38,778 nucleotides of DNA from an uncultured Lachnospiraceae bacterium. GTDB lineage: Bacteria > Bacillota > Clostridia > Lachnospirales > Lachnospiraceae. The number at the start of each line of letters is the position of its first letter. The first letter of the stretch is position 1. The notes under the pieces are model-generated. The model was not told the origin of the DNA. It did no database searches and saw only the letters and a program-made list of their open reading frames with translations. Shown here piece by piece: positions 30,509-38,778 of this stretch. The position numbers and the translations under genes are program-made. The stretch lies in assembly GCA_946541955.1 (NCBI GenBank), contig CAMNJZ010000011.1, positions 1 to 38,778 on the forward strand, given 5' to 3'.

Positions 30509-31117
30509 TCAGCCCTTCTTCCGGCCCAGGTTTTTCGCCATATTCCAGGCCTTTCCGGCATCCCTGGAGGAAGCCAGGAAGGAATCCTGCAGAGCGGCGA
30601 TGAAGATCTCCAGCTCCTCTTCCCTTCCGTATTTGGCAGGGACTGTGACGGTCATGCTGTAGAAGTCCTTTGCGGTCTTATTGAGCTTTTCCTCATCCGT
30701 GGACTGCATGATCCCGAAGACCTTCTTGGCGTAGCCGGGGCCAGTGCAGGTGGAAAGGTAGCGGTCCGCCGCATTGCGAAATTCCCAGTAGGCCGCGCTC
30801 CTTTTCACATCGTCCCAGTCTCCTGCTCCGTCCAGGCCAAGATCTGTGACGATCTTTCTGATTTCCCGCTCGCCCACGGCCCGGATCAGATACATGGGCC
30901 TCAGATACCCTGGCAGGATCACCATCTGCCAGAGGAAGTTGTCGACCCTGTGCCTTGGATCTTTTGGATCGGTATAGCGCAGCTCCATCAGCTCCCTTCG
31001 GAAGGCGTTGGCCCCGTCGTCCTCGTTTTCCCGCGCGATCTCCTCATAGAGGTCTCTTCGCCTGTCCGGATCCAGCTCCCTGTAGAATTCCATCCAGCAT
31101 GCATTTTCCAGATACAT
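30509..31117 (-). CDS. Uncharacterised protein, possibly DUF6553
   Basis: A 202-residue soluble protein without signal peptide or membrane segment. It is rich in charged residues and has a conserved-looking block TDPKDPRHRVDNFLW, then AAYWEFRNAADRYLSTC and a YAKKVFGIMQSTDEEK segment. From memory this resembles the DUF6553 group of clostridial proteins, but that assignment is tentative and gives no function. The ATG at 31117 has GGAGG seven bases upstream; upstream in-frame residues are a shadow of the lipoprotein gene. It is last in the sugar-sensing operon, 16 bp after the MglB-like gene, and is followed by a strong terminator. Its place suggests a link with that system, but this is only context. 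Confidence 0.75.
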   Translation of the reverse strand: MYLENACWMEFYRELDPDRRRDLYEEIARENEDDGANAFRRELMELRYTDPKDPRHRVDNFLWQMVILPGYLRPMYLIRAVGEREIRKIVTDLGLDGAGDWDDVKRSAAYWEFRNAADRYLSTCTGPGYAKKVFGIMQSTDEEKLNKTAKDFYSMTVTVPAKYGREEELEIFIAALQDSFLASSRDAGKAWNMAKNLGRKKG

Positions 31118-31133
31118 ATATATTCCTCCATCT

Positions 31134-32180
31134 TCAGGGTTCGCTGCCGAACCGGCTGATATTTTCTGGTGTGATTTCCGAATAGGGAAGGCGGATATAC
31201 TTGCCTTCCTGGAGGGGCAGATTCTCCAGGCCTTCCCCGGTGGAGAGGGCGATGGCCAGCGCCAGCATGGCCTGGGCCTGGCCTTCCTTATCATTATACA
31301 CAGTTCCGATCAGTTTTCCATTCCCGACCCCTTCCAGGCCGACCTTTGTTCCGTCGATGCCCACGATGGCAGGCCTCTGGTCCTGGGGGATCTCCCTGGC
31401 GTCATATTCGTCGGCTGCGCCCAGGGCCATATCGTCATTGTTGGCAAGGACCAGCTCGATCCCCCCGCCGTAGCGGTCGATCATCTGGCCCATCCGGTTC
31501 TGGGCCTGGCCCCGGTTCCAGTTGGCGATGGCGGATTCCAGCTTTTCGATCTGGATCCCGTCCTCGATCAGGGCGTCGATGGAGGTCTCGCTCCGGACAA
31601 TGGAATCCTGGTGGCCGGCTTCGCCCTCCAGGACCACATACTGAATGCTGCCGTCTCCATTCCGGTCCGTTTCCGGGTGCTCCTTGATATAGGCTGCGGC
31701 CGTATGGCCCTGGATCCTGCCGGAATCAAAGGCGTCGGCTCCCACATAGTAGAGCCTGTCCCAGCTCTGCAGGTCTTCCTCCACCAGCTCCCGGTTGAAA
31801 AAGATCACCGGGACCCCGGCCTCTCTGGCCATTTCAATGATCATGGAGGGGTCTGTCCTGTCCACCAGATTCACGCAGATCACGCTGCAGCCCTTGGAGA
31901 TCATCTGCTCCACCTGCTCGTTCTGAGTGATCTGGCTCTGGGCCGCATTATAGCGCTGGACGCTGACCGTCCTGTCCTGGTTCTCCGTATTGGCCTTTGC
32001 CACGTCCGCCATGAATACCTCCATCAGCTCGGAGATAAAGGTATCATATTCATCATATACGCATACCCCGATCCGGATCTCCTTGTTTCTGGCCCCTGCA
32101 GACCCCTGGCATCCTGTAAGGAGGACCAGGCAGAGGAGCCCTGTCAGGGCAGTGCAGAGAATTCCTTTTCTTATAAGCAT
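31134..32180 (-). CDS. MglB-like galactose/glucose-binding lipoprotein
   Basis: Extracytoplasmic sugar-binding lipoprotein of the Peripla_BP_4 group. The 348-residue protein has a signal peptide ending in lipobox LLTGC (Cys near residue 24). Its two-lobed body carries hallmarks of the galactose/glucose-binding protein MglB: IRIGVCVYDEYDTFI, NLVDRTDPSMII, VIFFNRE, YYVGADAFDSG, and VLANNDDMALGA followed by VGIDGT. Aspartates in NNDDMALGA and VGIDGT are ligand contacts in MglB. The ATG at 32180 has GGAGG seven bases upstream. It lies apart from mglA-mglC and inside the sensor operon, so it could be a second solute receptor feeding the transporter or the sensor. Confidence 0.88.
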   Translation of the reverse strand: MLIRKGILCTALTGLLCLVLLTGCQGSAGARNKEIRIGVCVYDEYDTFISELMEVFMADVAKANTENQDRTVSVQRYNAAQSQITQNEQVEQMISKGCSVICVNLVDRTDPSMIIEMAREAGVPVIFFNRELVEEDLQSWDRLYYVGADAFDSGRIQGHTAAAYIKEHPETDRNGDGSIQYVVLEGEAGHQDSIVRSETSIDALIEDGIQIEKLESAIANWNRGQAQNRMGQMIDRYGGGIELVLANNDDMALGAADEYDAREIPQDQRPAIVGIDGTKVGLEGVGNGKLIGTVYNDKEGQAQAMLALAIALSTGEGLENLPLQEGKYIRLPYSEITPENISRFGSEP

Positions 32181-32228
32181 GACAGCCTCCTGACGCTGAG
32201 CGTTTAAAAGTTCCTTCCCTCTGATCCC

Positions 32229-33206
32229 TTACTGTACCAGAGGAAAAAGCAGTTTTTCATTGGCAGGATCATGGACCTGGTCTGAGAGCACGCAGGCAAA
32301 GTCGATCCGGATATCCTCCATGACCTGAATATCATTCTGGAAGCGTCTGGCGAGAAGGGCCAGGCTCTGGTATCCCATGGTGAATTCGTTGGGGATGACC
32401 ATGCCGGAGATCACGCCCCTGTCCAGAAAGGAAATATTGGAGGGGGAGCAGCCGACCCCAAAGAGCTTCCCCCGGGGCAGGCCCCTTGTCTCCGAAAGGG
32501 CGGCCGCCCTGGCAAGAAGGCTGTCCTCCAGTACGGCGATCAGATCCAGGTCCGCCGCCTGGTCCAGGAGCTCCTCCTCTTCCATGGCGCCTGCGGACAG
32601 CATCATAACGCTGCCGCCGCCTGCCTCCAGGGTGTCCGTCAGTCCCCGGAGAATCTCCGCCTCCGTATATCTGGCAAGGTTCCCTGTCACCACGGCCACC
32701 GCAGGGTTTTGAGCCCCGGTATCCAGAAGCATCCTTCCCAGGGCCTCTCCCATTTCCAGGCCAGAGGGGATGACCGCCGCCATACCGGAGGCAGAGCCCT
32801 GGCGGATCCCATCCGTTCCCGTCAGAACGATGTTCATATCCTCCGGAAGGCCTTCCAGCAGATCGTCCGTGCCTTCCGAATCATAGAGGGACAGGATCAT
32901 GGCCTCTGTGCCGCCCGCCACCTCCTGACCCAGCAGTTTTTTCTGCTCCTCCAGGCTCTGGAAATCGGCAGAGGCCGAGATGGTCACATCGATCCCATAT
33001 TCCCGGGCCGCCTGGTCGATCCCCAGGCGAAAGGAGGTCCAGCGTTCGTTCGCGCTGTCCTCAATGATGACAGAGACTCTGTGCATGGGCCTTTCCCCGT
33101 CCTGGCGCAGCAGGTTGAAGGCAGACCACAAAATCACAAGAAGCAGAAAGAGCACGATCAGGCCCGGCATCCAGGGTCCCTGCCAATAAGTATTTTTCTT
33201 CTTCAC
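32229..33206 (-). CDS. Membrane-anchored periplasmic-binding protein, probable co-sensor
   Basis: A 325-residue protein with one uncleaved-looking N-terminal transmembrane segment (about residues 13-33) and no lipobox, followed by a type I periplasmic-binding fold (RVSVIIEDSANERWTSFRLGIDQAA, then TEAMILSLYDSEG and AVAVVTGN). It is not a normal transport receptor, because it stays tethered and sits next to a histidine kinase. This matches the XylFII type, in which a tethered sugar-binding protein activates a LytS/YesM-like kinase. The start is GTG at 33206 with GGAG seven bases upstream, 18 bp after the kinase stop. The ligand is unknown; a hexose is likely from the mgl context. Confidence 0.8.
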   Translation of the reverse strand: MKKKNTYWQGPWMPGLIVLFLLLVILWSAFNLLRQDGERPMHRVSVIIEDSANERWTSFRLGIDQAAREYGIDVTISASADFQSLEEQKKLLGQEVAGGTEAMILSLYDSEGTDDLLEGLPEDMNIVLTGTDGIRQGSASGMAAVIPSGLEMGEALGRMLLDTGAQNPAVAVVTGNLARYTEAEILRGLTDTLEAGGGSVMMLSAGAMEEEELLDQAADLDLIAVLEDSLLARAAALSETRGLPRGKLFGVGCSPSNISFLDRGVISGMVIPNEFTMGYQSLALLARRFQNDIQVMEDIRIDFACVLSDQVHDPANEKLLFPLVQ

Positions 33207-33224
33207 CCGTATTCTCCGTTCTTA

Positions 33225-35072
33225 TCAGGCTTTTTCATTGACCGGGGCGATCATGGATTCCGCCCCCGGCGTATAGGTGATCGCCGGCAGATGGATCCTG
33301 ACCCGGGTCCCCTCGTCGGGCTCCGAGTCGATGGACAGGCCGTAGCGGCGGCCAAAGCGAAGCTGGATCCGGGAATGGACGTTCCGGAGTCCGACCCCGT
33401 TCCCATGTCTTCCGGGACTTTCCTCCTCCCTGCCCGAGGGCTCCTCCAGAAGGCGCCCGACCTGGTCCTCCGGCATGCCAAGGCCGTTGTCGATGACATC
33501 CAGATAGACCTCCTGCCCCTCCAGGGTGCCCTTTACCAGGATTTCCCCGTCTCCGTCCATGCTCTGGACCCCATAGTAGATGGCGTTTTCCAGGATGGGC
33601 TGGAGGATCAGCTTGACGGTGCAGAAATCCATGATCTCCTCCGGGATGTCGAAGGCCACCTCAAAGGTATTCTTATAGCGGATCTTCTGAATGTTCATAT
33701 AGGACTGGGCGTGGCGGATCTCATCCCTTATGGGAATGATGGTCCTGCCCTGGCTGATACTGATCCTAAGAAGGGAGGCCAGCTGGCGGATCATATAGAC
33801 AGCGCCCTCGTCATGGCCGCCTTCGATCATCCAGACCACGGAATCCAGAGTGTTGTAGAGGAAGTGGGGATTGATCTGGGACTGAAGGGCGTCCAACTCG
33901 CTCCGACGTTTCTCCTCCTGCTCGGAAAGCACGTCCTCCATCAGCTGGTTGATCTTCTGGACCGAGGTCTGCAGGGTCCTGCCCAGGTGCTCCACCTCCT
34001 GGGGCCCGCCGATATAGATATCGGGATTCAGGTTTCCGTTTTCCAGATCCCGGACGGAATCATCCAGCCGCAGAAGGGGCCGGATCACATTGCCCGATAC
34101 GAAGAGGTTGGTGACCAGAATGCCCAGAAGGAAAAAGGCAATGACCATGACCAGAAAGTACTGGGTCCTGCCCATGCCGAGGCTGAAGGTCTCCATGGGG
34201 ATTACGCTGACCAGCTTCCAGCCTGTATAGGAAACGGTCTTGATGACCGTGATCCGGTTCTGGCCCTGGAAGGTCCCGGTATAGGAGCCGTCGCTCCGTC
34301 CCTGGATGGACAGGTTATCCTCCTGGTAGAGGCCGGCGTTGATCAGGCTCATGCGGGGATGATAAATGATCTCTCCGCTGCTGCTGCACAGATAGATATA
34401 CTGGGCGGAGCTGTCGGAATTGGCTTTTTCCAGAAGCTGCCGGATTCCGGAGAAATTCATGTCGATGAGGAGGACTCCCTGCCTGGGCAGGCCCTTGCTG
34501 GTCAGCTCCACGGCCCGGCTCATGGAAATGACCCAGTGATAGCGGCCGGCCGCCTCCTCAAAAAGGTTCTGGACATGGGGCATGGAAAAGTGGAGGTTCT
34601 CGACCGTGGTCCGGGCCTCAGTGAACCAGGACTGGTCCTGGGCCTTGACATCCCCCCTGGTGGCGGACAAAGGGACCGCGCTGACCAGGTCCCCGTCCTC
34701 GGTATAGAGGGCGATGCTGACCAGGTCGTCCTTATAGGCCTCATAAAGGAGACTGAATTCGGGATCCATGGAATCCGTTTCCAGGTCCTTGTTTTTGATG
34801 CTGGAGTAATAGAGGGCGTCGGAGATCCTCCGCATGGTCCTGAGATAGTCCTCTGTGCTGCGTTTGGTCTGGCCCAGGAACTGACTGGCGTTCTCTGTCG
34901 TCATGGTCTGGGTCCGGAGGTTGAACTGGCTGTAGAGGACCAGGCCCAGCATGATCATGCCGATGCCGGCGATCAGGGAGAAGGCCAGGGTAATGGTCAT
35001 CTGGATGCCGGCGTTTCTGAACTTCAGCTTTTTTCGGGCCCATCCAAGTGCCCCTGTGTTCGTTTCCTTCAC
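33225..35072 (-). CDS. YesM/LytS-type sensor histidine kinase
   Basis: Membrane sensor of 615 residues. Two transmembrane segments (about 25-48 and 303-325) flank an extracytoplasmic region of about 250 residues with a Cache-like pattern (DQSWFTEA, GVLLIDMNFSGI). A HAMP linker follows, then the His_kinase family domain with the phospho-acceptor H403 in QINPHFLYNTLD, and an ATPase domain with N-box (LILQPILENAI) and glycine boxes (DNGLGMPEDQ, GNGVGLRNV). The start is GTG at 35072, overlapping the response-regulator TGA by four bases (GTGA), so kinase and regulator are translationally coupled. It probably senses sugar through the tethered binding protein encoded just downstream. Confidence 0.93.
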   Translation of the reverse strand: MKETNTGALGWARKKLKFRNAGIQMTITLAFSLIAGIGMIMLGLVLYSQFNLRTQTMTTENASQFLGQTKRSTEDYLRTMRRISDALYYSSIKNKDLETDSMDPEFSLLYEAYKDDLVSIALYTEDGDLVSAVPLSATRGDVKAQDQSWFTEARTTVENLHFSMPHVQNLFEEAAGRYHWVISMSRAVELTSKGLPRQGVLLIDMNFSGIRQLLEKANSDSSAQYIYLCSSSGEIIYHPRMSLINAGLYQEDNLSIQGRSDGSYTGTFQGQNRITVIKTVSYTGWKLVSVIPMETFSLGMGRTQYFLVMVIAFFLLGILVTNLFVSGNVIRPLLRLDDSVRDLENGNLNPDIYIGGPQEVEHLGRTLQTSVQKINQLMEDVLSEQEEKRRSELDALQSQINPHFLYNTLDSVVWMIEGGHDEGAVYMIRQLASLLRISISQGRTIIPIRDEIRHAQSYMNIQKIRYKNTFEVAFDIPEEIMDFCTVKLILQPILENAIYYGVQSMDGDGEILVKGTLEGQEVYLDVIDNGLGMPEDQVGRLLEEPSGREEESPGRHGNGVGLRNVHSRIQLRFGRRYGLSIDSEPDEGTRVRIHLPAITYTPGAESMIAPVNEKA

Positions 35073-36676
35073 GCTCTGCTGTCCTTTGTCTTTCTGTATT
35101 TGGTGGGCGACATGCCGTATTTCTTTTTGAATACGTAGCTGAAGTAGTTGGGATCGGCGTAGCCCACCTTCTGGGCGGTGATATAGGTCTTCTCATCCTC
35201 CTCGTCCATCAGGCGGATGGCCTCCTTCATACGGTAGTCCGTCAGGTAGGTGATAAAGGCCGAGCCCGTTTCCTTTTTGAATACCGTGGAGAAGTAGGCG
35301 GCGCTGACGCCCAGGGAGGAGCATACCATCTCCAGGTCCAGGTTGGAATCGCTGAAGTGGTCCCTGACAAAATCCAGGGCCCTGGCCACAAAGGACTGGG
35401 TCTTGGAGACCCGCTGGGCCTGGACGATCTCCAGGGCCCTGCCCGAAATGTTCTCCAGCCACTGGCCGATGTCCTCGGTGGTGTCCATCTGAAGGAGGTA
35501 GCTGTAGACGTCCTCATGGTCCGGGCTGACCTGCTCGATGTCGATCTCGTTGGCGCTGCAGAAGCGGTAAAAGCCCGTCACCAAATCCATCAGGACCAGG
35601 CGGTATTCCCGGATCCCCAGGCCGGAGCCCGCCATTTTCCTGGTCAGAAGCCCCACCTGCTCGTGGAGGGCTTCCCGGTTCCCCATCTTGATCTGCTTGA
35701 AGATCTGGGCCAGGATCTCCTCGAAGGCGGATTCGCTGCTGGAATTCTCCGGGGCGATCTCCTGGATGTTGATGGCCTTGCCGGTCCCGTACAGGACCCT
35801 GTAGGAAACGGCTTCCCTGGCGCCTTCATAGAGGGCGGAAAGCTCCCGGATCTGGGAGGTGATCCTGCTGATGCCCACCGTGACCAGGGCCCTGCAGGAC
35901 CTTCTGGCCAGACGGCAGAAGCGGTCGCAGTCATCGGTATAGGCCGAGACCTCCTCGGCCGTCCCCAGCTGGGACAGGACCAGGATATTGCCCCGGTAGG
36001 AAAGGACATAGGACCGCCAGCTGTCCTGGAAATAGTCTTCCGCCAGCTCCCGGACCGAAAAATAAAGGAGCCTGGGCGTCAGGTCCCTGGGGATCTCGGA
36101 GGTGGAGACATGGATGACGGAGACCACATAGAAGGGGCCCTCCAGCTTCAGCTGATAGTCTGTCAGGTAATCCTGCAGGTTGTCCTCCGGGATATGGCCC
36201 TCCATCAGGGACATGAAGAAATTCTCCTGCAGAAGGGGGAGGCTCTTCTGATAATATTCCTCCAGCCTTTCCACAGAGCTTCTTCTTTCCCGGTCTTCGT
36301 CCAGGCGCTGCCTGACCTTCTCAAATACCCGGCGGATCTCTGCCGAATCGATGGGCTTTAAGAGATATTCCTCCGCCTCCAGCTTGATGGCTTCCTTGGC
36401 ATACTCAAATTCGTCAAAGCCGGAAAAGATGATGATCCGGATCCCGGGAAAGAGACTCTTTAAATGTCTGGACAGCTCCAGCCCGTCCATGTAGGGCATC
36501 TTGATGTCCGTCATGACAACGTCCGGCTGCAGCTCCTCGGCCATCTCCAGGGCCTCCACCCCGTTGGAGGCAGACCCACAGATCCGAAAGCCCAGCTCTG
36601 CCCAGTTCAGTTTTCTCATGATCACTTCGATGACTTCCTGCTCGTCATCGACCATCAGAACAGAATAAAGATCCAT
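35069..36676 (-). CDS. YesN-type response regulator with AraC DNA-binding domain
   Basis: Cytosolic transcription regulator of 535 residues. The receiver domain (1-120) has the acidic pair D10-D11 (VDDEQE), the phospho-acceptor D57 (VVMTDIKMP) and the conserved lysine in EEYLLKPID. A central region of about 300 residues of the YesN kind follows. The C-terminal AraC-type double helix-turn-helix (about 425-530) includes VSAAYFSTVFKKETG and QKVGYADPNYFSYVFKKKYGMSPTKYR. The ATG at 36676 has AGGAG nine bases upstream. It is first of the five-gene sensor unit, right after the mglC terminator, with no obvious promoter of its own, and is the likely activator of the mgl genes. Confidence 0.94.
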   Translation of the reverse strand: MDLYSVLMVDDEQEVIEVIMRKLNWAELGFRICGSASNGVEALEMAEELQPDVVMTDIKMPYMDGLELSRHLKSLFPGIRIIIFSGFDEFEYAKEAIKLEAEEYLLKPIDSAEIRRVFEKVRQRLDEDRERRSSVERLEEYYQKSLPLLQENFFMSLMEGHIPEDNLQDYLTDYQLKLEGPFYVVSVIHVSTSEIPRDLTPRLLYFSVRELAEDYFQDSWRSYVLSYRGNILVLSQLGTAEEVSAYTDDCDRFCRLARRSCRALVTVGISRITSQIRELSALYEGAREAVSYRVLYGTGKAINIQEIAPENSSSESAFEEILAQIFKQIKMGNREALHEQVGLLTRKMAGSGLGIREYRLVLMDLVTGFYRFCSANEIDIEQVSPDHEDVYSYLLQMDTTEDIGQWLENISGRALEIVQAQRVSKTQSFVARALDFVRDHFSDSNLDLEMVCSSLGVSAAYFSTVFKKETGSAFITYLTDYRMKEAIRLMDEEDEKTYITAQKVGYADPNYFSYVFKKKYGMSPTKYRKTKDSRA

Positions 36677-36711: not shown

Positions 36712-36740
36712 AAAAAAGCGGCCGGGAAAAACCCGGCCGC
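36712..36740 (-). terminator. Terminator between mglC and the sensor genes
   Basis: A perfect 9-bp stem GCGGCCGGG/CCCGGCCGC with a five-base loop (36718-36740) is followed by six T on the minus strand. It ends only about 36 bases before the response-regulator start. Confidence 0.93.
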
Positions 36741-36760
36741 TCCGATCAGCCTGATAAGAC

Positions 36761-37747
36761 TTATTTCTTTGCAACGTACTTTCTGATATCCAGAGAGATC
36801 GCGATATAGATGATGATACCAAGAGCGATCCACTGTGCGTTTGCGTTCACGCCCAGGAACTGCAGTGCTGCTTTCAGGAATTCGAAAACGGCAACGCCGA
36901 CGATAGCGGAGGATACCTTACCACGACCGCCGGTAACGGAAACGCCGCCGATGGTACATGCTGCGATGGCTTCCATTTCGTAGCCAAGGCCCAGGTTAAC
37001 GGAAGCACCGCCGGATTTAGCGCCCAGCATGAAGCCGGCCAGTCCGTAGAAGGCTGCTGCCTTTGCATAGATCATGACCATGGTCAGCTTGACGGGAACG
37101 CCGGCGACCTCAGCTGCCTGCGGGTTTGCACCGATGGCATACATATATTTGCCGTGGCGGGTCATGTTGAAGATGAACCAGGAAATGACAGCTATCAGGA
37201 TGGCGATCCATACCAGGTAAGGGATCATCAGAAGTCTGCCGGAAGCCAGGTTGGTGTACTCAGTAACATAGCCGCCCAGAGGGGTCGCGTTGGTCACGAT
37301 CAGGTTCAGACCGTAGACGATTTCCATCATTGCCAGCGTGGAAATGAAGGGAGGAACGCTCAGGAAGGCGATGAAGGAACCTGTTACAGCGCCGAAGCAT
37401 GCGCATACCAGCATGACAACGATGGCTGCCAGGAAGATGTTCATGGGCTGTCCGCCCTGGATGAAACGGCCGGAATAGTCAGCCTTCTGCAGCAGGATAC
37501 CTGCAAGGCAGCCGCCCAGACCGATCAGACGACCTGCGGACAGGTCGCATCCTGCGGTGATAACGCAGCCTGCGATACCCAGAGCGATGACCAGACGGGC
37601 TGACATGTTCAGCAGCAGGTTCATCAGGTTGGAAGGAGATACGAAGTTGGGGGTCTTGATACCCGTGAAGACGACCAGGATGACGATAATAAGAATAACG
37701 CCGTAGTTAATCAGGAAATCCTTGATATTAAAAGCTTTTTTGTTCAT
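36761..37747 (-). CDS. mglC: Galactose/methyl galactoside ABC transporter permease
   Basis: Membrane subunit of a sugar ABC importer of the BPD_transp_2 class. The 328-residue protein has multiple hydrophobic segments and the MglC-like sequences ALGIAGCVITAGCDLSAGR, TLAMMEIVYGLNLIV, HGKYMYAIGANPQAAEVAGV and CTIGGVSVTGGRGKV. The last two are the family's coupling-helix region and late signature. The ATG at 37747 has GGAGG six bases upstream; an ATG at 37765 adds six residues but has a poor site. It follows mglA by 72 bp, a gap that holds a small CCGGA/TCCGG hairpin (37774-37787), and is closed by a strong terminator. Substrate is inferred from similarity to MglC. Confidence 0.93.
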   Translation of the reverse strand: MNKKAFNIKDFLINYGVILIIVILVVFTGIKTPNFVSPSNLMNLLLNMSARLVIALGIAGCVITAGCDLSAGRLIGLGGCLAGILLQKADYSGRFIQGGQPMNIFLAAIVVMLVCACFGAVTGSFIAFLSVPPFISTLAMMEIVYGLNLIVTNATPLGGYVTEYTNLASGRLLMIPYLVWIAILIAVISWFIFNMTRHGKYMYAIGANPQAAEVAGVPVKLTMVMIYAKAAAFYGLAGFMLGAKSGGASVNLGLGYEMEAIAACTIGGVSVTGGRGKVSSAIVGVAVFEFLKAALQFLGVNANAQWIALGIIIYIAISLDIRKYVAKK

Positions 37748-37819: not shown

Positions 37820-38778
37820 TTAGAACATGGTTGCGTAACTCATGACCTTCTCCTGGGTCATTTCTGCAGGATCGGTGATCTCACCGCGGATATGGCCGTT
37901 GCACATGACATAGATCCTGTCGGACATGCCCAGAAGCTCTGCCATTTCTGAGGAGATCATGATGATCGCCTTGCCCTGCTTCTGCAGCTCGACCATGATC
38001 TCATAGATCTCGTGCTTGGCGCCGACGTCGATACCACGGGTCGGTTCGTCCATGATCAGGACGTCCGGATCATTGGCCAGCCATCTTGCAATGATGACCT
38101 TCTGCTGGTTGCCGCCCGAAAGGTTTGAGATGTGTTCCTGGGCATTAGGCGTCTTGATCGACAGCTTCTTAATGCTCTCGTCCACGATCTTGTTGATCGT
38201 AGGATGATCCAGAACAAAACCGGCCTTCAGGTTCTTGTCATAGATGGAAATGCCCGTGTTGTCCTTGATGGACAGGCAGCCCAGAATACCGTTGCCTCGT
38301 CTGTCTTCTGTGATCAGACCGATGCCGGCATTCATAGCCTTGCGGGGCGTCTTGGTGTCCACCTTCTTGCCGCCTACATAGATCTCGCCGGATTTGATGC
38401 CGCGCATACCGAAGATGGCTTCCATGAGCTCGGTACGCTGGGCGCCGACCAGACCGCCGAAGCCGATGATCTCGCCCTTGCGGATCTTGAAGGAGCAGTC
38501 CTGGAAGGATTTCTCATGAATGGAGCATACATTCTTGGCCTCCAGGACCACCTCACCGGGGGTGCAGGGGTGGGGAGGATATACATTGGTCAGTTCACGG
38601 CCGACCATCTTGGCGATGATCTGGTCCGTGGTCATTTCGGCTGCCGGCCAGGTGCCGACATAGGTGCCGTCACGCATGATGGTGATATCATCGGAGATCC
38701 GCTTGATTTCATCCATCTTGTGGGAAATATAAATCATAGCAACGCCCTTATCACGAAGGTCATTCATGATACGGAACA
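37820..38778 (-). CDS. mglA: Galactose/methyl galactoside ABC transporter ATPase, C-terminal part
   Basis: The frame runs off the right edge of the window, so only about 319 C-terminal residues are present. It starts in the end of the first ATPase domain (VAMIYISHKMDEI, the switch histidine) and contains the whole second domain. That domain has a degenerate Walker A (GFGGLVGAQRTELM, no lysine), the signature LSGGNQQKV and Walker B (DVLIMDEPTRGID). A weakened second Walker A is normal in MglA/RbsA/XylG double ATPases, so the first domain is expected to do most hydrolysis. It powers import of galactose or glucose with mglC. The transport receptor gene mglB is probably just outside the window. 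Confidence 0.93.
   Translation of the reverse strand, partial: FRIMNDLRDKGVAMIYISHKMDEIKRISDDITIMRDGTYVGTWPAAEMTTDQIIAKMVGRELTNVYPPHPCTPGEVVLEAKNVCSIHEKSFQDCSFKIRKGEIIGFGGLVGAQRTELMEAIFGMRGIKSGEIYVGGKKVDTKTPRKAMNAGIGLITEDRRGNGILGCLSIKDNTGISIYDKNLKAGFVLDHPTINKIVDESIKKLSIKTPNAQEHISNLSGGNQQKVIIARWLANDPDVLIMDEPTRGIDVGAKHEIYEIMVELQKQGKAIIMISSEMAELLGMSDRIYVMCNGHIRGEITDPAEMTQEKVMSYATMF

Follow-up and report, generated by a model that had tools for sequence, protein, structure and literature searches.

A candidate four-component sugar receptor of Lachnospiraceae, pairing a tethered binding protein that lacks the canonical sugar sites with a companion lipoprotein that keeps a galactose/glucose-type pocket

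Known sensors with binding proteins and the layout of the locus

XylFII of Clostridium beijerinckii is a tethered xylose-binding protein encoded in a gene cluster with LytS and YesN; it activates LytS, a kinase with an ectodomain, which signals to YesN. GanP of Geobacillus stearothermophilus belongs to the GanPST sensor system, and the Geobacillus arabinose-binding protein AraP also has a sensor role. In signalling by LuxP-LuxQ, TorT-TorS, and XylFII, the binding protein (SBP) acts on the ectodomain of the kinase, according to the passages on them in PMC6321045, and the same is described for ChvE-VirA in passages of PMC13068155. The passages of these two sources on LuxP-LuxQ, TorT-TorS, and ChvE-VirA describe no intermediate pocket-less tethered SBP. 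Of the two SBPs in the CuaD-CuaS-CuaR system of Ruminiclostridium cellulolyticum, the one used for sensing itself binds the sugar, according to the passages on it in PMC10384115.

The window analyzed here, the whole stretch of 38,778 nucleotides, is one entire contig of an uncultured Lachnospiraceae bacterium. Its sensor genes and their neighbors are as follows.

30509..31117, minus strand, DUF6553 protein, 202 aa (PF20190, 94.6 bits)
31134..32180, minus strand, MglB2, galactose/glucose-type binding lipoprotein, 348 aa (Peripla_BP_4, 156.9 bits; MglB family, 212 bits; structure match 8fxu)
32229..33206, minus strand, tSBP, N-terminally tethered binding protein with a degenerate sugar pocket, 325 aa (Peripla_BP_4; alpha/beta model; site counts below)
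33225..35072, minus strand, YesM-type sensor kinase with an extracellular dCache domain, 615 aa (dCache_1, 74.5 bits; HAMP, 29 bits; His_kinase, 91.1 bits; HATPase_c, 57.3 bits)
35069..36676, minus strand, YesN-type response regulator, 535 aa (Response_reg, 90.6 bits; HTH_18, 66.6 bits; REC plus AraC-type HTH)
36717..36741, minus strand, intrinsic terminator in the gap between mglC and the regulator gene (10-bp stem with 9 G-C pairs, then a T run)
36761..37747, minus strand, mglC, sugar permease (BPD_transp_2; MglC model, 297.5 bits, under the equivalog cutoff of 386)
37820..38776, minus strand, 3' part of mglA, transporter ATPase, truncated where the contig ends (remainder on contig C7)

The five sensor-side open reading frames (ORFs) were all found on the minus strand in the ORF list, and both their coordinates and their domains agreed with the initial annotation, which had described a regulator, a kinase, an anchored binding protein, an MglB-like lipoprotein, and a 202-residue protein. 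The regulator and kinase ORFs overlap by 4 nt, and the remaining gaps are 18, 48, and 16 nt when the DUF6553 start is placed at 31117. This start is preceded by GGAGG, and the ORF list gives a longer ORF starting at 31294. According to the domain search, the kinase carries dCache, HAMP, and His_kinase domains and the regulator REC and HTH_18 domains, the composition of a YesM/YesN pair. An Rfam search of the window gave no family at the gathering score, and a scan of it for sigma-70 promoters and terminators gave no more matches than were found in shuffles.

The window ends within mglA. The remainder of mglA, together with mglB1, lies at the end of contig C7 of the same genome, and the last 16 bases of C7 are identical to the first 16 of the reverse strand of the window. 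We infer the full order mglB1-mglA-mglC-regulator-kinase-tSBP-MglB2-DUF6553 across the two contigs. In a relative (genome G025, locus L038), the genes from mglB1 to the tSBP gene are in this order on one contig.

As with AraP and, in the passages on it, CuaD-CuaS-CuaR, the sensor SBP is separate from the transport SBP and lies beside a kinase and a regulator. Compared with XylFII-LytS-YesN, the cassette adds a companion SBP, MglB2, and its kinase ectodomain is of the dCache_1 family. Compared with CuaD-CuaS-CuaR as described in those passages, its setting has three SBPs (MglB1, MglB2, and tSBP), of which the tethered one appears to be non-binding. These comparisons suggest that the cassette is a variant of the XylFII-LytS-YesN and GanPST sensors, in which the new element would be a pocket-less tethered SBP combined with an intact companion SBP.

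Sugar sites of the two binding proteins

MglB2 has a lipid-type Cys at position 24 and matched the solved MglB 8fxu with an E value of 1e-68. Its 212 bits, relative to the NCBIfam MglB equivalog cutoff of 420, make it a homologue rather than an equivalog. We examined the ten columns of MglB2 that align with the pocket of the E. coli galactose-binding protein. D46, N129, H190, D192, R196, W221, N248, and D276 were found in 80/80 rows, F48 in 93%, and N296 in 96%. By these residues, MglB2 keeps the whole galactose/glucose pocket, and it is best read as the sugar receptor. A galactose/glucose signal, as initially proposed, is likely given this conserved pocket and the two non-orthologous galactose/glucose-type transporters found beside the cassette.

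tSBP has a single N-terminal hydrophobic helix (residues 12 to 35) and no lipobox, and its alpha/beta structure model has a mean pLDDT of 83. The hydrophobic segment was present in 78/80 tSBP rows, the exceptions (L105 and L127) being cut at contig starts, and 79/80 rows had no lipobox. tSBP is thus predicted to be held at the membrane, as in XylFII/GanP-type sensors. Its best structure matches include GanP, XylFII, and AraP; together with the alignments, they bear out the kinship with XylFII that had been proposed. The locus also has the composition of a three-component sensor, with the gene of an SBP-fold protein, in agreement with the structure model, beside those of a sensor of the His_kinase family and a regulator of the AraC type.

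The sugar sites of such sensor proteins are not retained in tSBP. GanP, XylFII, and 3brs keep 5 to 6 of six canonical sites, whereas the window tSBP has 0/6 and the 80 cassette tSBPs have 0 to 2 of 6, with His counted as aromatic at site 55. XylFII keeps the Asp and Gln sugar sites that tSBP is without, and GanP, a glucose-galactose binding protein solved with galactose and with glucose according to the entry titles, keeps 5/6. In tSBP, the sugar-Asp site is Gly in 80/80 rows, and none of the 78 rows that include site 55 has an aromatic residue there. An hhalign alignment of tSBP with MglB2 placed the sugar Asp at Gly 252. Because it misaligned the C-terminal strand region, the count at the sugar-Gln site (Gln in 0/80, Pro in 72) rests on the GanP and XylFII alignments. 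The sugar-type Arg is kept in 68/80 tSBPs and is replaced in the window by Ile 185; Met 202 of the window protein replaces a Trp. Other polar residues, S51, R55, S254, and D262, are conserved, and with the Arg they may reflect a pocket reshaped for another ligand. tSBP has a C-terminal ENQKLLFP-like tail in common with many sensor proteins that have an intact pocket and the same gene order. tSBP is the fastest-diverging part of the cassette, with a median identity to the window of 27.5%, compared with 51.5% (kinase ectodomain) and 57.7% (MglB2); this divergence would fit either weak constraint or an interface that changes rapidly. With the canonical sites gone, the idea of tSBP as a second sugar receptor is not supported, and the sequence does not suggest that two receptors sense a ratio or a range.

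In other clusters, we then compared site retention with the presence of a companion SBP. Where a companion was lacking, sensor proteins kept 4 to 6 of 6 sites (n = 21); where there was an extra SBP, they kept 0 to 4 (n = 14); and where a single SBP followed the regulator with no visible transporter, they kept 0 to 2 (n = 6). L152 and L189 were classed with the extra-SBP group on the basis of two SBP genes after the regulator with no ATPase in view, and at L164 only a permease is visible upstream. Ten of the 51 sensor SBPs (L066, L147, L162, L167, L169, L170, L177, L181, L183, and L185) were unclassed for a companion and left out; 8 of them keep both Asp and Gln, and the other two, L167 and L169, lack the Asp and belong to loci ending at a contig edge. 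Two loci departed from the pattern: in L064 the Asp, Gln, and Arg sites are all retained despite an extra MglB-like protein, and L171 has no companion yet lacks the Asp. A xylose-type cassette followed the same pattern, with a pocket-less sensor protein, a XylF-like companion, and then a separate ChvE-like protein, which precedes the ATPase where the latter is in view. On the tree, the link between pocket loss and companion comes down to roughly two changes that coincide, and an independent-pairs sign test, which takes at least six pairs to reach significance, cannot do so with the 2 to 3 pairs of this sample.

Spread of the cassette and its candidate operator

The compact cassette consists of the regulator, kinase, tSBP, and MglB2 genes. 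Among 79 named loci, chosen by MglB2 alone, the tSBP gene lay directly upstream of MglB2 in 79/79; the kinase gene was adjacent in 77 and the regulator gene in 75, the remainder being cut at contig starts. The order is thus conserved in relatives, a check the initial annotation had asked for, and the two-protein arrangement it had called uncommon is constant in this sample. The carriers are gut and rumen bacteria, and the tSBP-MglB2 pair occurs in Roseburia, Butyrivibrio, Oribacterium, [Ruminococcus] torques, and others. In 14 loci, a count that leaves out L078 and L109 (mglC cut at the contig start), a non-orthologous transporter takes the place of the adjoining one, and in 4 genomes the transporter is located elsewhere. 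In literature searches, which took in few subscription papers and so do not establish absence from print, we recognized no paper on this cassette.

A 40-nt direct-repeat operator, whose two half-sites resemble AGAATTTTC and lie 21 nt apart, was modeled from 36 mgl promoters. In 12/12 held-out loci in view, the top match lay just upstream of the TpMglB-like gene, a non-orthologous one (18.7 to 35.2 bits; next best, ≤14.7). These loci count as fewer than 12 independent tests because they come from close relatives, with TpMglB-like proteins 65 to 85% identical to that of L142. Upstream of the remote transporters, it was the top match in 4/4 genomes (18.7 to 47.5 bits; next best, ≤6.4). In the genome of the window, the operator lies 114 nt before the mglB1 ATG and is the sole match at ≤3 mismatches; its score of 12.4 bits is modest, and 1/60 control loci scores as high. 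The site of a related locus (L111/L229) reached just 3.7 bits. The operator was absent in 4/4 cases without a detected cassette, a small control set in which three are lone mglB-like genes and just one is an mglBAC operon, that of G002 (best score, -11.6 bits), a genome 77% complete. Control of the galactose transporter genes by the cassette, which had been proposed for mgl, is a well-supported prediction from the operator shared by these promoters.

In the window, the strong terminator lies between mglC and the regulator gene, so the sensor genes adjoin mgl but are not simply part of the same transcript. A terminator in this gap was found in 24/57 relatives, compared with 2/1140 shuffles. A joint transcript of mgl and the sensor genes as the sole mode is disfavored by this terminator in the window and in those relatives.

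A proposed relay, its alternatives, and the DUF6553 neighbor

We give a probability of about 0.5 to a relay in which MglB2 is the sugar receptor and tSBP a transducer or docking co-receptor, with the signal passed to the kinase and the regulator to activate mgl. Lipid-anchored MglB2, with its complete predicted pocket, would bind sugar and close. Closed MglB2 would dock on tethered tSBP, itself sitting on the dCache domain of the kinase, whose activity would then change and lead to phosphorylation of the regulator. The regulator would bind the direct-repeat operator just upstream of the mglB1 -10 element, and mglBAC would be activated. The predicted retention of the pocket in MglB2 and its loss in tSBP, the fixed pairing of the two, and the candidate operator at the transporter are supported by the comparisons above; we infer the docking, the direction of the signal, activation rather than repression, and the regulator as the operator binder. 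More tentative is the general form of this proposal, a four-component receptor that divides the work between two homologous SBPs, an intact lipoprotein that catches the sugar and a tethered pseudo-SBP that no longer binds sugar and serves a YesM kinase as docking co-receptor. This division would have arisen at least twice (galactose/glucose and xylose-type) and be widespread in gut and rumen Lachnospiraceae.

The cassette might instead be an ordinary three-component sensor, in which tSBP is still the signal receptor, signalling alone like XylFII or GanP through a redesigned sugar pocket, and MglB2 only gives MglAC a second transport protein with a different tuning. The fold and subfamily that tSBP shares with XylFII and GanP, its frequent Arg, and its well-kept polar residues agree with this, as do published two-SBP systems, which combine one sensing and one uptake protein in the passages of PMC10384115. 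We nevertheless consider it unlikely: the window tSBP has none of the six sites, the transporter is already served by MglB1, and MglB2 stays with tSBP at every locus while the transporter is swapped or remote.

The nearest surviving form of the initial two-receptor idea is a two-input sensor, with MglB2 reporting galactose/glucose, tSBP reporting another, possibly charged, small molecule, and the kinase integrating both. The replacement of the aromatic residue at site 55 by Arg (60/78) or Gln (13/78) points this way, as does the good conservation of S51, S254, D262, and an N/D-E/D pair following Pro 272, as if a pocket had been rebuilt and not given up; but the window protein has lost even the family-kept Arg and the Trp, and with the low median identity of the tSBP family this makes such a sensor quite doubtful. 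Least probable, and in our view a long shot, is direct action of MglB2 or sugar on the dCache domain, with tSBP a stabilizer or inhibitor outside recognition or relay. The kinase ectodomain is indeed far better conserved than tSBP, and passages of PMC10384115 suggest that CuaS may sense cellobiose directly, though weakly, when its SBP is absent. However, tSBP is missing from 0/79 loci, and its tail in common with intact-pocket sensors looks as if a kinase contact had been kept.

If the proposed relay is true, it would be a new wiring of sugar signals in bacteria abundant in gut and rumen, Roseburia and Butyrivibrio among them, and a paralogue that lost binding would have been turned into a transducer, a pseudo-receptor within a bacterial kinase complex. 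Many tethered proteins annotated as sugar binding beside YesM kinases would then not bind sugar. The analysis also provides a testable candidate operator for galactose transporter genes of Lachnospiraceae.

The DUF6553 protein scored 94.6 bits against PF20190 (Pfam gathering score, 25). Its sequence has no hydrophobic N terminus, and its model is all-helical (pLDDT 90), with no PDB fold match at E ≤ 0.001. An imperfect hairpin is visible after the gene and was not picked up by the terminator script. In G034, the gene occurs as DUF6553-GDPD-PPDK without mgl in view; a mere membership in these downstream genes was overturned by its position directly downstream of MglB2 in 23/78 loci. The additional partner proposed initially is therefore recurrent but not general, and 18 of the 23 genes are on the opposite strand (convergent). 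DUF6553 is a recurrent neighbor of MglB2, outside the proposed core mechanism.

Genes of the cassette and their order

The initial annotation had proposed five open reading frames as a sensor operon. The ORF listing confirms all five, which are encoded on the minus strand and follow one another closely or overlap.

Genes in the window, with their Pfam domains
35069-36676, minus strand: YesN-type response regulator (Response_reg and HTH_18)
33225-35072, minus strand: YesM-type kinase (dCache_1, HAMP, His_kinase and HATPase_c)
32229-33206, minus strand: tethered binding protein, tSBP (Peripla_BP_4)
31134-32180, minus strand: binding lipoprotein MglB2 (Peripla_BP_4)
30509-31117, minus strand: 202-residue protein (PF20190, DUF6553)

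The structure model of the window's tSBP had a single N-terminal hydrophobic helix (residues 12 to 35), and no lipobox was found in this protein. A species-genome collection was scanned with an MglB2 alignment, which gave at least 493 relatives; the best 80 were taken, corresponding to 79 distinct loci. Among these best 80, an N-terminal hydrophobic segment was present in 78 tSBPs, the other two (L105 and L127) being cut at contig starts, a lipobox was absent from 79 of the 80 tSBPs, and the lipid-anchor cysteine was found in all 80 MglB2 rows.

The order mglBAC-regulator-kinase-tSBP-MglB2 was repeated in close relatives. The tSBP gene was directly upstream of MglB2 at 79/79 loci from the best 80 of at least 493 relatives, with the kinase adjoining in 77 and the regulator in 75, the remainder being cut at contig starts. 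Because the loci were chosen by MglB2 similarity, these counts support a fixed pairing of MglB2 with tSBP rather than a property of all mgl operons. The records include Roseburia inulinivorans, Roseburia faecis, [Ruminococcus] torques, Butyrivibrio, Oribacterium, Velocimicrobium and Claveliimonas. The Butyrivibrio record L107 (16539 bases) carries the regulator-kinase-tSBP-MglB2 cassette twice, on opposite strands. In two Butyrivibrio records (L104:9992-12895 and L107:5514-8372), MglB2 is fused to a C-terminal part of about 600 residues with a DUF3298 match and a PdaC-like match below Pfam's cut-off. The cassette of L103, a record titled as an Akkermansiaceae MAG, resembles those of Lachnospiraceae records, so this record may be mistitled or come from a mixed bin.

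The window spans an entire contig, with mglA interrupted at its end. Contig C7 of the same genome ends with an mglB (MglB1) and the 5' portion of mglA that the window lacks, and the two contig ends have 16 identical bases in common. A strong terminator (36741-36717) lies between mglC and the regulator gene, so the sensor genes adjoin mgl but are not simply cotranscribed with it. A similar terminator was found in this gap in 24/57 relatives, compared with 2/1140 shuffled gaps. Some relatives have a 101-residue small ORF between mglC and the regulator gene (L043:11951-12256, L058:1171-1476 and L059:10758-11063). The window's genome also has a lone MglB-like lipoprotein gene (G000:C8:1242-2222; L003/L057), with no transporter or such sensor genes adjoining it within 9 kb.

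Sugar pockets of the binding proteins

MglB2 aligned with solved MglB proteins, namely 8fxu (E 1e-68) and two galactose-binding proteins (1gca and 1glg, E between about 1e-50 and 1e-49). All ten alignment columns that correspond to pocket residues of the E. coli galactose-binding protein were kept, each in 93 to 100% of the rows of the best 80 of at least 493 relatives. The nearest solved relatives of the tSBP in profile searches were GanP, the C. phytofermentans protein 3brs, 4rxt and XylFII. GanP, XylFII and AraP were among its best structure matches, equal to or just below many transport proteins. The tSBP was scored at six superfamily sugar-lining sites, placed by reference to the sugar contacts of the ribose-binding protein. 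GanP kept 5, 3brs 6 and XylFII 5, versus 0 for the window's tSBP. Among the tSBPs of the best 80 of at least 493 relatives, 0, 1 or 2 sites were kept in 10, 53 and 17 rows, respectively; the sugar-Asp site was Gly in 80/80, and the sugar-Gln site was Pro in 72/80, the remaining eight rows having Thr, Ala or Val there. These comparisons support MglB2 as a receptor candidate with a pocket and the tSBP as a tethered protein lacking one.

An ENQKLLFP-like C-terminal tail (window 32229-32290) is common to most sensor binding proteins in the regulator-kinase-binding protein order, with or without a pocket, and absent in those of the reverse order. A simple pattern detected it in 60/80 rows of the best 80 of at least 493, and in other proteins it was recognized by eye. 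This tail is a possible kinase contact.

Sensor clusters were sought in 245 genomes of the class, giving 78 places besides the window's, and 60 of these, 18 further regions and three earlier loci were used. This sample contained 51 sensor binding proteins next to a kinase. For 10 of them the presence of a companion could not be decided, and these were excluded from the comparison. Those without an extra binding protein (n = 21) kept 4 to 6 of the six sites, those with one (n = 14; no ATPase in view at L152 and L189) kept 0 to 4, and those whose cluster has a single binding protein following the regulator, with no transporter in view (n = 6), kept 0 to 2. Asp and Gln were both kept in 20/21 without a companion versus 1/14 with one (Fisher p about 1e-7, uncorrected for kinship). 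On a tree of the 51 proteins and 20 of the 80 cassette tSBPs, this link amounted to about two coincident changes, and an independent-pairs test had too few pairs to reach significance. As exceptions, L064 has an extra binding protein yet keeps Asp, Gln and Arg, and L171 has lost Asp though it has no companion; L167 and L169 also lack Asp, but a contig edge ends the cluster. In three of the clusters with an extra binding protein (L148, L149 and L152), the companion is XylF-like and a ChvE-like protein comes next; the XylF-like companion of L149 aligned over nearly its full length with 3m9w, a solved D-xylose-binding protein.

A candidate operator at the transporter genes

A 40-nt motif upstream of mglB1 contains two direct half-sites, 21 nt apart, and lies shortly before a TATAAT. 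A weight matrix was trained on 36 mgl promoters and tested at loci outside the training set. At TpMglB-like transporter loci, the top match was directly upstream of the binding protein gene in 12/12 in view, two more being cut with the region out of view. The L142 protein of this kind matched 5jx2, a 'Glucose/galactose-binding lipoprotein' (E 3e-91); the other eleven were 65 to 85% identical to it and about 25 to 34% identical to MglB1, in partial matches. A third kind of transporter had the motif upstream at 41.5 bits (L103) and 35.8 bits (L113). Six loci had no transporter in the upstream view (L111, L124, L129, L133, L136 and L144). The transporter of L111, also of the third kind, is downstream on the other strand, preceded by only a weak motif (3.7 bits); no close MglC relative was found in the genome of L124 (best E 1e-17); and the remote galactose transporters of the remaining loci had the top match upstream in 4/4. 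The untrained mgl promoter in L107's genome scored 46.2 bits.

Among 21 genomes in which no tSBP was detected, 4 had an MglB1 relative, and the motif was absent there in 4/4. This negative control is thin because mglA and mglC adjoin that gene in G002 alone (77% complete), the other three having lone mglB-like genes. The site in the window's genome scored 12.4 bits; it lay 114 nt ahead of the ATG of mglB1 and was the sole match at up to 3 mismatches; 1/60 control loci scored as high. The high-scoring controls L170:7282, L182:6094 and L179:6636 were weak matches just before the transporter genes of other sensor clusters, which would fit related regulators with related sites and hints at an operator type shared across this regulator family. 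These sequence matches support a target operator, which the cassette's regulator would bind.

Proposed signal path, related systems and DUF6553

The operator at the transporters agrees with the mgl control suggested in the initial annotation, and the 0/6 sites speak against its view of the tSBP as a sugar receptor. In the simplest reading, MglB2 would be the sugar sensor, the tSBP would pass the sugar signal to the kinase, and the regulator would switch on the transporter; here we infer the docking, the sign of regulation and the role of the tSBP. A tSBP with a redesigned pocket is a rival reading, to be set beside both its kinship with GanP and XylFII and its lost sites. The two binding proteins might also form a two-input sensor, or MglB2 might act directly on the dCache domain, with the tSBP gene nevertheless kept beside it.

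PMC10384115 describes a sensor binding protein, CuaD with CuaSR, distinct from the transport one, and refers to systems of C. beijerinckii and G. stearothermophilus in which sensing and uptake each have a binding protein. Action on kinase ectodomains by LuxP, TorT and XylFII is described in PMC6321045; ChvE-VirA and an unresolved Parageobacillus YesM-YesN locus with two binding proteins appear in PMC13068155. In a literature search with subscription journals mostly outside its reach, no paper describing this cassette was found. The new elements would be the third binding protein, a tethered protein that has lost its pocket, and the evidence for an operator.

DUF6553 is conserved, and its all-helical model (pLDDT 90) had no match in the PDB at E<=0.001. 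A copy was found in 29/61 genomes searched, the window's included. In a search of the loci from the best 80 of at least 493 relatives with a profile built from 11 copies outside the cassette, its gene directly followed MglB2 at 23/78 loci (18 convergent and 5 codirectional), including the window (30509-31117), L071, L074, L077, L089, L097 and L100. The neighborhood is thus kept despite flipped orientation. It occurred away from MglB2 only once in 1.37 Mb of locus sequence and is likely linked to the cassette.
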